Shown: piece by piece, positions 23,882 to 27,840 of the stretch
Numbering within the stretch: the first letter of the stretch is position 1
Layout: the number at the start of each line of letters is the position of its first letter
Assembly (NCBI RefSeq): GCF_004138135.1
Contig: NZ_RYFD01000025.1
Coordinates: forward strand, 1-64,000
Length of the DNA stretch: 64,000 nucleotides
Reading direction: 5' to 3'
Source: Candidatus Oscillochloris fontis
GTDB taxonomy: Bacteria; Chloroflexota; Chloroflexia; Chloroflexales; Chloroflexaceae
Notes under the pieces: model-generated
Seen by the model: only the letters and a program-made list of their open reading frames with translations
Told to the model about the DNA's origin: nothing
The model's database searches: none
Made by a program: the position numbers and the translations under genes

Positions 23882-25975
23882 ATGCCAAACCAACCCACTT
23901 CCACCAACCAGATCGCCGACCTCGAACTGGAACTATTCCCCTTTGCGGATGGCTTGGGGCTGCGCATGCGCTACACCCGCCCCGGCGATCAGGGTGAGGA
24001 TGTGGTGGGGCCGCTCTCGGTGGCGCTGGATCGTAGCGCCTTGAAGAGCCTTGAACATGATGCGCTCGCTTATGGGAAGGCATTGAGTAGCCAACTCTTC
24101 GCCGATGCTGCCGCGTTTGGGGCATGCACCAGCCGCATGACGGCGGCCCGCGAGGCGGGCTATACCATGCGCATCCGCCTGCACCTGACTGAGCCGGAGT
24201 TACACACGCTACGCTGGGAGTGCCTGGTTGATCCGCTTACCCAACAACCGTTGGGGTTGGACGCGCGGTTTCTCCTCACCCGCTATGTCAGTGCCGAGGC
24301 TTATGGCGCGATCATGCTGCGCCCACGCAGTGCGTTGCGGGTCTTGGTGGTGGTGGCCAACCCCGATGATTTGAGCCGCTTCGGGTTGGCGGCGCTCGAT
24401 CCATCTGCCGAGTTGCAACGCCTCCGCACCGCTGCGCCCGATCTGGCCGTGGATCTGCTCACCCCCCAAGCGGGCGAGTCTACCCTGAATGCCTTGGGGC
24501 GCATGCTGCGTGCTGCTCCTGGTTACGACATCCTCTACCTCGTGGCGCATGGCAGCTTTGCGAAACAGGAAGCCAAGCTCTTTTTGGCCGATGCCCAAGG
24601 CAAGACCGAGGTGTGCGCGGGGAGCGATCTGGTGGATCTGCTCGCCGGGCTGGTTGATGAGTACCGCCCGCGCATGGTGCTGCTCGCCTCCTGCGAGAGT
24701 GCCGGGGATGGCTACGCCAATGCGCTGGCCGCGCTGGGGCCACGCATCGCCCAGGCGGGGATTCCGGCAGTGCTGGCGATGCAGGGCAATGTCGCTATCG
24801 CCACCATCAACCGTATGTTGCCGGTCTTCTTCCGCGAACTGCTGCACGATGGGGTGGTGGATCGCGCCTTGGCGCATGCGCGCCTTGATGTGCGTGGGCA
24901 GACCGATTGGTGGATGCCGGTGCTCTACACCCGCCTGCGTGAAGGCCGGATCTGGCCCGATCAGGCCAATGATCCAGCCGCGCCCTATGTGGAGGGCCGC
25001 CGCCTCGATGCCGCCGCCCCCGCCGAAGCGTTTGTCGGCGATCCGATTGAGTTGTTGGTGCAACTCTGCCTGCCTAACTCGCCCGGTTTCCGCGACCGTC
25101 TGCCCATCACCACTGAATCGGGGGCCGAGATTACCCAGGACGATGTGCATGGTGGGGAGATGTCGCTCACCTTCCCCACCAATGCCGATGGTTTGCCCCG
25201 TCCAGCCCCGGTACGGATCAAGATCGCGGCTCCCGACTTTGAACTGGATCGCGAATATGTTGATGCCGAGGTCATGCCGGGGGCGGATCTGCCCCTGCTG
25301 ACCTTCTCGCTCACCCCTAAGCGTACACGCCGCCATACAAGCATCCACGTTGCGCTGCTCCAGCCGCGCCCGGAGGGCGGCTACTATGAGCGCGGCGCGA
25401 TTGATCCGCTGGTGCTGCGTGTTGCTCCGCGTGGAGCCGGTCTGATTGGCCAGATGAAGTGGATTATCTCCAGTTTGGCCTTCAATACCAAGCTCTTTGC
25501 GCCAGAGCCGCAACCTATTCCGCCAGCGATCAGTATGATGGTGGATGCGATGCGTGGTGACAGTCCACTGATTGATTTTGGCCAGGGCAATCAGATCGGT
25601 GAGATCAATTTTCAGGGCGATATTGCGCGTGGTGATGTGATCAAGACCTACAACTACACGGGTGAGCGTGGGGCGGCTCATATTGATCTGGATGCCCTGC
25701 AAGATCTGATCGATGAATCAGATCGCTTTGACCCCATCAAAGAACTCCAGAAACTGATGCGGCGTGTCTCGGTGGCGCGTAACGTGGATGAAGATCTGCG
25801 GGACGAGGCCGCCCTGCGCATTTCGCAGGCGATCAAGGCGCTGGATGCGGGCAAACCGGCACTGGCACGTGAGCGTATTGATCAAGCCCTGGACATTCTG
25901 GATGCTATGCAGAATGGCTACATCAATGCGATCACGGGCAAGCTGCGCAAGGTGCGTAAGGGGATCATTGCGTAG
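23882..25975 (+). CDS. CHAT-domain protease (caspase-like), standalone
   Basis: 697 residues. The N-terminal ~140 residues (LELELFPFADGLGLRMRYTRP...ELHTLRWECLVDP) form the domain that usually precedes CHAT in Chloroflexota. CHAT spans about 150-360, with the predicted dyad His223 (LVAHGSF) and Cys271 (LLASCESAGDGY). Residues ~385-515 are a beta-rich domain, ~565-592 carry a short Gly/Ile/Asn motif (GNQIGEINFQGDIARGDVIK), and the C-terminal ~100 residues are helical. CHAT proteins act as proteases in predicted suicide or conflict systems; TPR-CHAT in type III-E CRISPR is the best-known case. No ATPase lies beside it; a paralogue sits at 54941-56332. The stop TAG begins a GTAGGGGCGAAG repeat. 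Confidence 0.88.
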   Translation: MPNQPTSTNQIADLELELFPFADGLGLRMRYTRPGDQGEDVVGPLSVALDRSALKSLEHDALAYGKALSSQLFADAAAFGACTSRMTAAREAGYTMRIRLHLTEPELHTLRWECLVDPLTQQPLGLDARFLLTRYVSAEAYGAIMLRPRSALRVLVVVANPDDLSRFGLAALDPSAELQRLRTAAPDLAVDLLTPQAGESTLNALGRMLRAAPGYDILYLVAHGSFAKQEAKLFLADAQGKTEVCAGSDLVDLLAGLVDEYRPRMVLLASCESAGDGYANALAALGPRIAQAGIPAVLAMQGNVAIATINRMLPVFFRELLHDGVVDRALAHARLDVRGQTDWWMPVLYTRLREGRIWPDQANDPAAPYVEGRRLDAAAPAEAFVGDPIELLVQLCLPNSPGFRDRLPITTESGAEITQDDVHGGEMSLTFPTNADGLPRPAPVRIKIAAPDFELDREYVDAEVMPGADLPLLTFSLTPKRTRRHTSIHVALLQPRPEGGYYERGAIDPLVLRVAPRGAGLIGQMKWIISSLAFNTKLFAPEPQPIPPAISMMVDAMRGDSPLIDFGQGNQIGEINFQGDIARGDVIKTYNYTGERGAAHIDLDALQDLIDESDRFDPIKELQKLMRRVSVARNVDEDLRDEAALRISQAIKALDAGKPALARERIDQALDILDAMQNGYINAITGKLRKVRKGIIA

Positions 25976-25991: not shown

Positions 25992-26020
25992 TTGACATCC
26001 CCCACGCAACGATCTATACT
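25992..26020 (+). promoter_or_regulatory. Near-consensus promoter of mgtE
   Basis: TTGACA (25992-25997), 17-bp spacer, TATACT (26015-26020). The predicted transcript start near 26027 leaves a leader of about 360 nt before mgtE. Confidence 0.75.
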
Positions 26021-26385
26021 GCCCAACGGGTTGGGCAACCATCCCACTCTTTCACGCGCCTGTGGCGCAACCGCTTGGGCGGTTGTTGGTGAGTATTGCA
26101 GGGCAGCGACGCTCTTCTCACAAGCTACAGGAGCCTACCCAAAAGGCATATGGAAGGTAGTCATCAACAAAGCCATCGCGACCTGCTAGGCCACGCAATG
26201 TGCGCTTGCTTAGGTGCGGGTGTGATCTTGGTTGTCTGACGTTCGCCCTCCAGTGGGCGCCGCCAGCGCCCATACTCCTCCCCGCCTCGGCAGACGCCGG
26301 GGTTTTTGCTTCCCCTTGGCTCATCCAGGTCGCTCCGCGCCGTCTGTGGCCCTGCTGCCACGGTCGGTATTTGCTGGAGGGACAC
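26021..26385 (+). promoter_or_regulatory. Structured mgtE leader with attenuator-like hairpin
   Basis: The leader contains perfect hairpins GCCCAA-CGGG-TTGGGC (26021-26036), AACCGC-TTGG-GCGGTT (around 26070) and TGGGCGC-CGCCA-GCGCCCA (around 26253-26271). A GC-rich stem, GCCTCGGC/GCCGGGGT, directly followed by TTTTT (about 26284-26307) looks like a rho-independent terminator before the gene. A 29-residue open frame (26150-26239, MEGSHQQSHRDLLGHAMCAC...) lies upstream of it with a weak AAAGG site and could be a leader peptide. This layout is typical of a riboswitch or attenuator. I do not recognise the M-box core, so the class is open. Confidence 0.5.
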
Positions 26386-27411
26386 ATGATCGCATTCCGC
26401 ACCCCCGTTGAGGGCGTGATTGCCGCGCCCGTGGTACGCCCGCTTGCCGCCGAGAATGATGGACTCACCTACGCGCCTGCGCTGAGTTTTCCGCGCCACG
26501 CGACGGCGCAACAGGTGATTGATACGCTGCGCCAGATGCGCCCCGATGCGGATAGCGCGTCGTACCTGTTTGTCACGGGTGAGGCGGGTCGTCTGATTGG
26601 CACGCTCAGCCTGCACCAATTGGTCGTGGCCGCACCGGAGACGCGGGTTGAGCAACTGATGAACCCTAGCCTCGTGGCGCTGCCCGAAGATCTTCCGACT
26701 GAGGAGCAGGCGCGCATCCTGAGCGATTCGGGTCTGGCCGCTTTACCGGTGATTGATGCCTCTGGGCGGCTGGTCGGGGCGCTCGATGCCGGTGATCTGC
26801 TCGATGCGGTGGAGGAAGAGGCGACCGAGGATATGTACCTGCTGGCGGGTGTGGATAAGGATGAGGAGGTTTCGCGCCCCATCCAGCGCGCCGCCCGCGA
26901 CCGTGTCTTCTGGTTGACGATCAACCTCGCCACGGCCTTTCTGGCCGCTTCGGTGGTGAGTGGTTTTCAGGATGTGATCGCCCAGGCGGCGGTGCTGGCC
27001 GCGTTTATGCCGATTGTGGCCGGGCAAGGCGGCAATGCCGGCACCCAGACCCTCACCTTCATTGTGCGTTCGTTGGCGCTCGGTGAGGTACGTATGGCCA
27101 ACGCGGGTAAGATTCTGCTGCGCGAACTGACCATCGGCATCTGCAACGGGATCTGTATTGGGTTGCTGGTGGGTGTGCTGGGTTGGCTCTGGAAGGGCAT
27201 TCCCGCCTTGGGCTTGGTGGTGGGGGTGGCGATGATGGGCAACATGATCCTGGCCTCGTTGGCCGGGGTGTTGGTGCCGCTCACCCTCAAGGTGCTGCGG
27301 ATTGACCCCGCGCTGGCCTCGTCCATCTTTGTCACCACGGTGACGGATGTGTGTGGCTTCTTTATCTTTTTGAGCCTGGGGATGCTGGCCTTGCAGATGG
27401 GGTATCTGTAG
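26386..27411 (+). CDS. mgtE: MgtE-family Mg2+ transporter with CBS pair
   Basis: 342 residues from the ATG at 26386, with GGAGGGACAC just upstream. Residues ~30-160 form two CBS domains (ATAQQVIDTLRQM..., MNPSLVALPEDLPTEEQARIL...), the Mg2+-sensing gate of MgtE. About 180-340 is the five-segment membrane domain, with the pore signature AAFMPIVAGQGGNAGTQTLT and PLTLKVLRIDPALASSIFVTTVTD. The N-terminal superhelical N domain of full-length MgtE (~450 residues) is missing, so it is a short form. It is a channel for Mg2+ uptake. Regulation at RNA level is likely given the long leader. Confidence 0.93.
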   Translation: MIAFRTPVEGVIAAPVVRPLAAENDGLTYAPALSFPRHATAQQVIDTLRQMRPDADSASYLFVTGEAGRLIGTLSLHQLVVAAPETRVEQLMNPSLVALPEDLPTEEQARILSDSGLAALPVIDASGRLVGALDAGDLLDAVEEEATEDMYLLAGVDKDEEVSRPIQRAARDRVFWLTINLATAFLAASVVSGFQDVIAQAAVLAAFMPIVAGQGGNAGTQTLTFIVRSLALGEVRMANAGKILLRELTIGICNGICIGLLVGVLGWLWKGIPALGLVVGVAMMGNMILASLAGVLVPLTLKVLRIDPALASSIFVTTVTDVCGFFIFLSLGMLALQMGYL

Positions 27412-27416
27412 AATTC

Positions 27417-27490
27417 TGGTATGTTTTGGCGGCGAAGCCGCCAAAACATACCAAAATAAAGATCTGCGGGGGCGGCGAGCCGCCCCCGCA
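27417..27490. repeat. GGCGGC palindrome followed by a second GC-rich hairpin
   Basis: Perfect 17-bp arms (27417-27433 and 27437-27453, loop GAA) lie just after mgtE. A 12-bp GC-only hairpin (27465-27490) and a CACCCCCACC segment shared with the MITE interior follow. Probably the mgtE transcript end. Confidence 0.7.
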
Positions 27491-27506
27491 CCCCCACCAG
27501 TCTGCT

Positions 27507-27535
27507 GTGACAGATCCTGACTTTGGGGGTACAAT
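27507..27535 (+). promoter_or_regulatory. Promoter of the small membrane protein gene
   Basis: GTGACA, 17-bp spacer, TACAAT, each one mismatch from consensus; 49 bp upstream of the ATG. Confidence 0.65.
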
Positions 27536-27584
27536 AGAGGCTAGTCGTGCGATCTGTCTTGAAATCTCGTGTGGAGAATGAGCA

Positions 27585-27689
27585 ATGCCTGAGATTACTA
27601 CCGATATCCGCCGCGTGCTGACGCTGATCGTTCTCACGTTGCTGATCGCCTTCATGTTTGCGGTCTGGATCTTTGCCTTCTACATGTAG
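27585..27689 (+). CDS. 34-residue single-pass membrane protein
   Basis: ATG at 27585 with GGAG 9-12 bases upstream, and a good promoter before it. The sequence is a charged N-terminus (MPEITTDIRR) followed by one hydrophobic helix (VLTLIVLTLLIAFMFAVWIF) and a short end. Such sizes are easily missed by gene callers. No function can be named; small subunits of membrane complexes or transport regulators look like this. It sits between two repeat clusters and does not overlap another gene. Confidence 0.6.
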   Translation: MPEITTDIRRVLTLIVLTLLIAFMFAVWIFAFYM

Positions 27690-27691
27690 TC

Positions 27692-27840
27692 AGGCGGCAA
27701 GCCGCCCCCGAAGAACTTTTTTTCTCGTATGGTGGCGGCGAAGCCGCCACCATACGAGAAAAGAGATGGTCTGGGGCGCAGCCCCAAGCGTGGCTAAAGT
27801 TCATGGTAATGGGCGAAGCCGCCCCCGAACCCCCACCGGA
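27692..27840. repeat. Composite repeat upstream of the dehydrogenase
   Basis: Includes a perfect 20-bp palindrome (27720-27739 and 27743-27762, loop GAA), a GGGGCGCAGCCCC hairpin, and a CCCCCGAACCCCCACCGGAGG segment. These blocks are also found inside the 696-848 element, but the 18-bp terminal repeats are absent. The final GGAGG serves as the ribosome-binding site of the next gene. Confidence 0.7.

Follow-up and report, generated by a model that had tools for sequence, protein, structure and literature searches.

The M-box riboswitch (RF00380) controls mgtE in other bacteria, and control of Mg2+ uptake by leader peptides is understood chiefly from enteric bacteria, in which it operates via Rho or translation. 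In the mgtCBR leader, short ORFs are combined with alternative hairpins that are unlike intrinsic terminators, and an involvement of Rho has been proposed (PMC3641672). The leader ORFs mgtM, mgtP and mgtQ comprise 8-16 codons, with mgtP and mgtL being proline-rich (PMC3641672, PMC8092293). In Salmonella mgtQ, the residues Asp2 and Glu5 hinder translation of mgtQ itself and increase MgtB (PMC8092293). The small ORF uORF2 (Rv1805A), which lies before pe20 in Mycobacterium tuberculosis, is under the control of an M-box (PMC12810186). Here we describe a leader from the Chloroflexaceae that probably functions as a ribosome-mediated transcription attenuator controlling Mg2+ uptake genes.

The window, that is the whole 64 kb stretch of DNA analysed here, belongs to a 4.46 Mb genome and contains an mgtE gene. 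Its product matches PF01769 (e-value: 2.9e-35) and carries the membrane and CBS domains expected of an MgtE channel, with a TIGR00400 score above the cut-off (235.6 vs 232.75 bits), while the MgtE_N domain is absent. The closest solved structure is the Mg2+ transporter MgtE (2yvx), the match running from residue 159 onward. In full-length MgtE, MgtE_N precedes the CBS domain; the short form lacking MgtE_N is common to at least 12 Chloroflexaceae genomes, and G003 and G005 encode a long MgtE besides the short form. The gene and its leader comprise the following features:

25992..26020, + strand: sigma-70-type promoter, with -35 box TTGACA (25992-25997), 17-nt spacer and -10 box TATACT (26015-26020)
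26056..26134, + strand: predicted three-way junction (covariance model R1, covariation and P1 swap test)
26056-26066 with 26124-26134, + strand: junction helix P1
26068-26074 with 26079-26085, + strand: junction helix P2
26089-26093 with 26117-26121 and 26100-26104 with 26111-26115, + strand: junction helix P3
26105-26110, + strand: P3 hexaloop AGCGAC (family pattern RRNGNM, one G near-invariant)
26150..26239, + strand: leader ORF of 29 codons, MEGSHQQSHRDLLGHAMCACLGAGVILVV, with AAAAGG upstream of the start
26174..26204, + strand: region 1, predicted 5' arm of an in-ORF hairpin able to sequester region 2 (fold and clade swap test)
26205..26226, + strand: region 2, predicted antiterminator arm, ORF codons 19-26, pairing with the terminator 5' arm
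26244..26271, + strand: GC hairpins lying between stop codon and terminator, with alternative pairings GCCC/GGGC and GGGCGC/GCGCCC
26284..26308, + strand: intrinsic terminator (regions 3 and 4), GCCTCGGC-AGAC-GCCGGGG then TTTTT
26386..27411, + strand: mgtE, short form, 341 aa, CBS and MgtE membrane domain without MgtE_N

A first-pass annotation of this DNA had proposed a near-consensus promoter about 360 nt before mgtE, a 29-codon frame in the leader and a terminator-like stem with a T-run, and all three stand, being retained in relatives as described below. The promoter matches 11 of the 12 consensus positions, where shuffles of the scanned region average 0.7 sites at the lower threshold of 9/12, and the end of its -10 box lies 365 nt from the mgtE ATG (26386). 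Transcription is expected to start near 26027, and a scan of the leader region found no second promoter ahead of mgtE. A promoter of the same type, equally far upstream, is present in 14 other Chloroflexaceae leaders, while that of G022 is without a detectable -10 box. The expected transcript start is spanned by a perfect inverted repeat (GCCCAAC-GG-GTTGGGC, 26021-26036), a possible operator or stabilising 5' hairpin; the 5' hairpin found at this place differs in most relatives. Upstream of the promoter, a 697-aa ORF (23882-25975) is by eye a candidate CHAT-domain (caspase-like) protein. On the 3' side of mgtE, positions 27410-27840 harbor several long GC-rich palindromes, such as TTTTGGCGGCGAAGCCGCCAAAA and TATGGTGGCGGCGAAGCCGCCACCATA, as well as a promoter-like site (27507-27535) and a 34-codon ORF (27585-27689; MPEITTDIRRVLTLIVLTLLIAFMFAVWIFAFYM) that may encode a membrane peptide with a single transmembrane pass.

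The single-sequence fold of the window leader is slightly more stable than its shuffles (z -1.75), and relatives were needed because hairpins in one GC-rich sequence prove little. The leader lies ahead of the same short mgtE in 16 Chloroflexaceae genomes (that of the window and 15 others). A DNA search recovered it in two of the five congeners, 72-74% identical, on the same strand and directly 5' of mgtE; the genes upstream are not the same among these three genus members, while the promoter, ORF, terminator and their spacing are retained. Family-level mgtE relatives, with 43-85% protein identity, share the same layout. With Rfam release 15 as the reference for known RNA families, no family reached the gathering threshold in the window, and scans of the relatives returned only M-box and tRNA above threshold. 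As the first-pass annotation had supposed, the M-box core is absent: the RF00380 covariance model does not match the window leader at its gathering score, and the search it had proposed against RF00380 and all riboswitch models gave nothing at threshold. A search for tRNA and tmRNA was negative, and no relative turned up in the viral contigs searched. The best of the weak matches, to Yfr1 (RF01116; 25.1 bits vs a gathering score of 38), consists of two GC hairpins and was rejected. Those one-mismatch pattern matches outside Mg2+ loci that were inspected resembled chance. On this comparative proof, the leader is a real, conserved regulatory element. A lack of conservation and covariation in relatives had been named beforehand as a finding that would overturn the attenuator claim, and conservation and covariation were both found.

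A leader ORF with a start codon and ribosome-binding site is present between promoter and terminator in all 16 leaders, with the same positions of start and Shine-Dalgarno sequence in the relatives and a length of exactly 29 codons in ten of the 16. The peptide N-terminus follows the consensus M-[D/E]-x-S-H/Q. Codon 2 encodes Asp or Glu in 27/29 leaders, with GAA, GAC and GAT all in use, indicating that the amino acid itself is under selection. For Ser, nearly all leaders use AGT, a preference that may reflect an additional RNA-level constraint. The ORF contains no run of codons for a single amino acid, its conserved start being M-[DE]-x-S-H/Q, and past approximately codon 8 there is no codon-position bias and changes are mostly nonsynonymous, in keeping with a function of the 3' half at the RNA level. 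The ORF is probably translated; past the N-terminus it shows no coding signature in these alignments.

The terminator hairpin is likewise found in 16/16 leaders, with a U-run in 11 of them and a strong hairpin lacking a good U-run in the other five. When the most stable duplex of ORF and terminator 5' arm was computed leader by leader, it mapped towards the ORF 3' end in 15/16 cases, at approximately codons 19-30; in the window, region 2 pairs with the terminator 5' arm at -20.4 kcal/mol. Among ten clade representatives, own ORF-terminator pairs reach -265 kcal/mol, compared with -206 +/- 10.8 kcal/mol for swapped pairs, with none of 200,000 permutations as good. The outcome with five long-mgtE leaders added is the same (0/100,000 as good), and for the long-mgtE leaders alone (five clades) p=0.18. 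Compared with codon-order shuffles, the 2:3 pairing reaches about p<=0.05 in 12/16 leaders; for the window alone, p is 0.05 against codon-order and 0.18 against dinucleotide shuffles. This pairing of the ORF 3' half specifically with its own terminator indicates an antiterminator overlapping the leader ORF, as in trp-type attenuators. Family-wide, the antiterminator is mutually exclusive with the terminator, with modest support in the window alone.

A 1:2 hairpin competing with the antiterminator is found as well: its swap test gives p=0.004 with region 1 starting from codon 9, region 2 extended 5' and the clade of G020 left out, a p value to be read with care since these boundaries were picked after viewing the folds. 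With poorly placed boundaries, the same test had yielded p=0.39. The z score of the 1:2 hairpin is below -2.7 in 5/16 leaders (four of one genus, plus G012) and near zero or positive in several others, with the window at -1.4. The GC hairpins at 26244-26271 had been considered as the key switch and were dropped; they are absent from G006 and G012, and so are not a core part. Taken across the clades, the pairing logic 1:2, 2:3 and 3:4 is well supported; for the window alone, support is modest for 2:3 and weak for 1:2. The earlier suggestion of an attenuator, possibly with a leader peptide, is thereby borne out at the family level, with ORF, antiterminator and terminator covarying as in a trp-like attenuator.

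The leader is further distinguished by its 5' domain. When applied unaided to seven relatives, none of them from the genus of the window, RNAalifold returned a three-way junction whose P1 helix closes just 5' of the ORF ribosome-binding site. Eight junction pairs are changed on both sides in this alignment, a count equalled in none of 500 shuffles. The covariance model R1, built from these seven relatives with the clade of the window left out, matches the window at 26053-26173 (e-value: 8e-10, among 21 loci), and on the whole source genome the window leader is its sole match (e-value: 4.6e-8). Confident R1 matches are restricted to the Chloroflexaceae, with one per genome; two weak matches in a phylum search of 400 genomes (e-values: 0.003 and 0.007) were taken as chance. 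In a 13-sequence alignment, which was fitted to the R1 model and hence leans towards the junction structure, 20 of the 26 junction pairs show changes on both sides and 95.5% of cells are paired (0/500 shuffles), compared with a maximum of 50% paired and seven pairs in slid controls on the same alignment. An alignment-free check, in which the strands of P1 were exchanged among ten clades, returned p=0.00025. The distance from the end of P1 to the start of the ORF is 10-17 nt in 15/16 leaders and 15 nt in the window, and the helix is retained in members such as G006, G044 and G020 despite very different sequences. The junction is, judging from these alignments, conserved by structure rather than sequence and absent from Rfam, in line with the earlier suggestion that the leader may be of another class. 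By eye, the P3 hexaloop might also form a pseudoknot with the linker that follows P1 (window positions 26135-26140) in 8-9 of 14 leaders, for example loop AACG with CGUU and AAGG with CUUU, although not in the clade of the window.

The same type of ORF followed by a terminator extends beyond the short mgtE. It lies ahead of long mgtE genes in Chloroflexus-like genomes and other genera, with peptides such as MDSSHSRQRH, MDGSHTGQRR and MDDHQPGRRR, while in the congeners G001 and G002 it precedes an operon made up of an MgtE_N-CBS gene and, after it, a gene for an NRAMP-family transporter. The closest solved structure to the latter transporter is 7qia (e-value: 9e-112; next 1.9e-32), which we take to be a Mg2+ transporter of the NRAMP family. 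The M-box search that was negative in the window leader is positive in three relatives, L147 (120 bits), L148 (115 bits) and L196 (105 bits). In these leaders, from G008, G016 and the congener G004, the order is M-box, its own terminator, leader ORF, second terminator and gene. In L147 and L148, the ORF (MDVSSHSRRR... or MDDHQPGRRR...) and second terminator precede a long mgtE, while in L196:347-850 (G004, of the genus of the window) a TTG-start ORF (DDPHQHPGIWMYVPN...) and second terminator precede MgtE_N-CBS and NRAMP-type genes. Two further families of the order contain a long mgtE with a terminator and a leader ORF located just after the -10 box. The ATG of such leaderless-type ORFs (L021, L024, L025, L027 and others; MSTDGST, MNADGHSSN) lies 8-12 nt past the -10 box, and their initiation could be Mg2+-dependent; the antiterminator swap test for the Herpetosiphonaceae-type leaderless leaders gives p=0.07. 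The family-wide occurrence, the additional Mg2+ transporter genes and the tandem arrangement with the M-box go beyond what the first-pass annotation had seen.

Comparison supports the promoter, junction, ORF start, 2:3 pairing and terminator as parts of this system, and we infer the translation of the ORF, the ribosome as the switch, Mg2+ as the signal and a junction that would tune initiation on the leader ORF. In the proposed mechanism, the polymerase would start near 26027 and produce the three-way junction ending just 5' of the ORF ribosome-binding site, after which region 2 (codons 19-26) would pair with either region 1 (approximately codons 9-18) or region 3, the terminator 5' arm. A ribosome reaching the stop codon would cover region 2, allowing the 3:4 terminator to form and switching mgtE off, while a ribosome pausing within the first codons (M-[D/E]-x-S-H/Q) would mask region 1, such that the 2:3 antiterminator forms and transcription proceeds into mgtE. 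A probable trigger would be low Mg2+ destabilising or slowing ribosomes on the acidic N-terminal codons; Mg2+ is proposed as the signal because of the target genes and precedent. Early fall-off of the ribosome would leave 1:2 free and favour termination, and the model thus needs either a pause or a 2:3 pairing that outcompetes 1:2, which is the weakest part of the mechanism.

The structural conservation of the junction throughout the family, the 10-17 nt interval between P1 and the ORF, and the near-invariant hexaloop G would also fit a riboswitch that senses Mg2+ or a metabolite and acts on ORF initiation, with the ORF and terminator as its expression platform, particularly as an M-box takes the position upstream of the ORF in L147, L148 and L196. 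However, the M-box in these leaders has its own terminator before the ORF and is thus a separate switch, and there are relatives in which the ORF and terminator are preceded by only short 5' hairpins or in which the ORF is leaderless. The junction moreover lacks a conserved ligand-pocket sequence, and an alternative fold of P1 that would be conserved was likewise not found; we regard this reading as unlikely. A wider proposal unites it with the attenuator, namely that the junction with its hexaloop is a new, probably Mg2+-responsive riboswitch class which took the place of the M-box in one lineage of the Chloroflexaceae. It would gate translation of an ancient acidic leader peptide driving a trp-like attenuator, and elsewhere in the order this peptide would occur together with an M-box or short hairpins, or without any leader, instead of with the junction; we put this forward as a speculation with a small chance of being correct.

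A lone terminator whose U-run is weak in some genomes, hence partial read-through, and the lack of a coding signature towards the ORF 3' end would fit a plain structured 5' UTR, in which a stability hairpin, the junction and a constitutive leaky terminator set the mgtE level and the ORF is non-regulatory. Such a UTR does not, however, predict the own-partner-specific pairing of ORF and terminator, the conserved start site and acidic codon 2, or the repeated occurrence ahead of Mg2+ transporter genes of three kinds, and it is accordingly given little credence. The promoter-to-terminator unit and the weak Yfr1-like score might alternatively suggest an independent sRNA of about 280 nt, with mgtE transcribed from its own promoter. 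This is scarcely credible and was rejected on synteny, as the leader always lies directly 5' of a Mg2+ transporter gene while the upstream genes vary among the three genus members; there is also the failure to find a second promoter before mgtE, and an antiterminator would be pointless in an sRNA. The ribosome-mediated attenuator therefore remains the preferred reading.

A search among open-licence papers for leader peptides or riboswitches associated with mgtE in Chloroflexi returned nothing relevant. Attenuators of this kind are known, but the present target, its peptide and the junction upstream appear not to have been described. The system is family-wide in a group of Chloroflexota, with a clear terminator/antiterminator logic, three kinds of Mg2+ transporter genes and M-box tandems, and would provide a simple testable setting for whether the ribosome senses Mg2+ via acidic N-terminal codons. 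Its covarying three-way junction is furthermore a candidate new class of regulatory RNA outside Rfam release 15.

Compared with the described systems, the M-box is absent from the window leader and occurs 5' of the same kind of ORF in three relatives. The M. tuberculosis M-box-uORF2 leader shares a conserved small ORF that follows a Mg2+-responsive RNA domain and precedes genes related to Mg2+, but there the sensor is an M-box with a translational platform and Rho, and uORF2 is said to be specific to mycobacteria, with a conserved Pro7 (PMC12810186). Here, by contrast, termination is intrinsic and the junction is not an M-box, which is found in only some of the relatives. With mgtL, mgtM/mgtP and mgtQ of Salmonella and E. 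coli, the leader shares a short ORF 5' of a Mg2+ transporter gene and alternative hairpins. Codon 2 of mgtQ encodes Asp and is acidic here too, such that the mgtL/mgtQ-type N-terminal acidic residue is present; no sequence homology is claimed. A proline-rich or clustered acidic/proline N-terminus of the mgtL/mgtQ type is resembled only in L196 (DDPHQHPG), and while it is translation that is controlled in the case of mgtQ, the present leader would act through intrinsic transcription termination. The arrangement is the same as that of the trp/his-type attenuators in its leader ORF overlapping regions 1 and 2, its exclusive 1:2, 2:3 and 3:4 pairings and its terminator before the structural gene, and differs from these in the absence of a single-amino-acid codon run, in its Mg2+ transporter target and in the extra conserved junction upstream.
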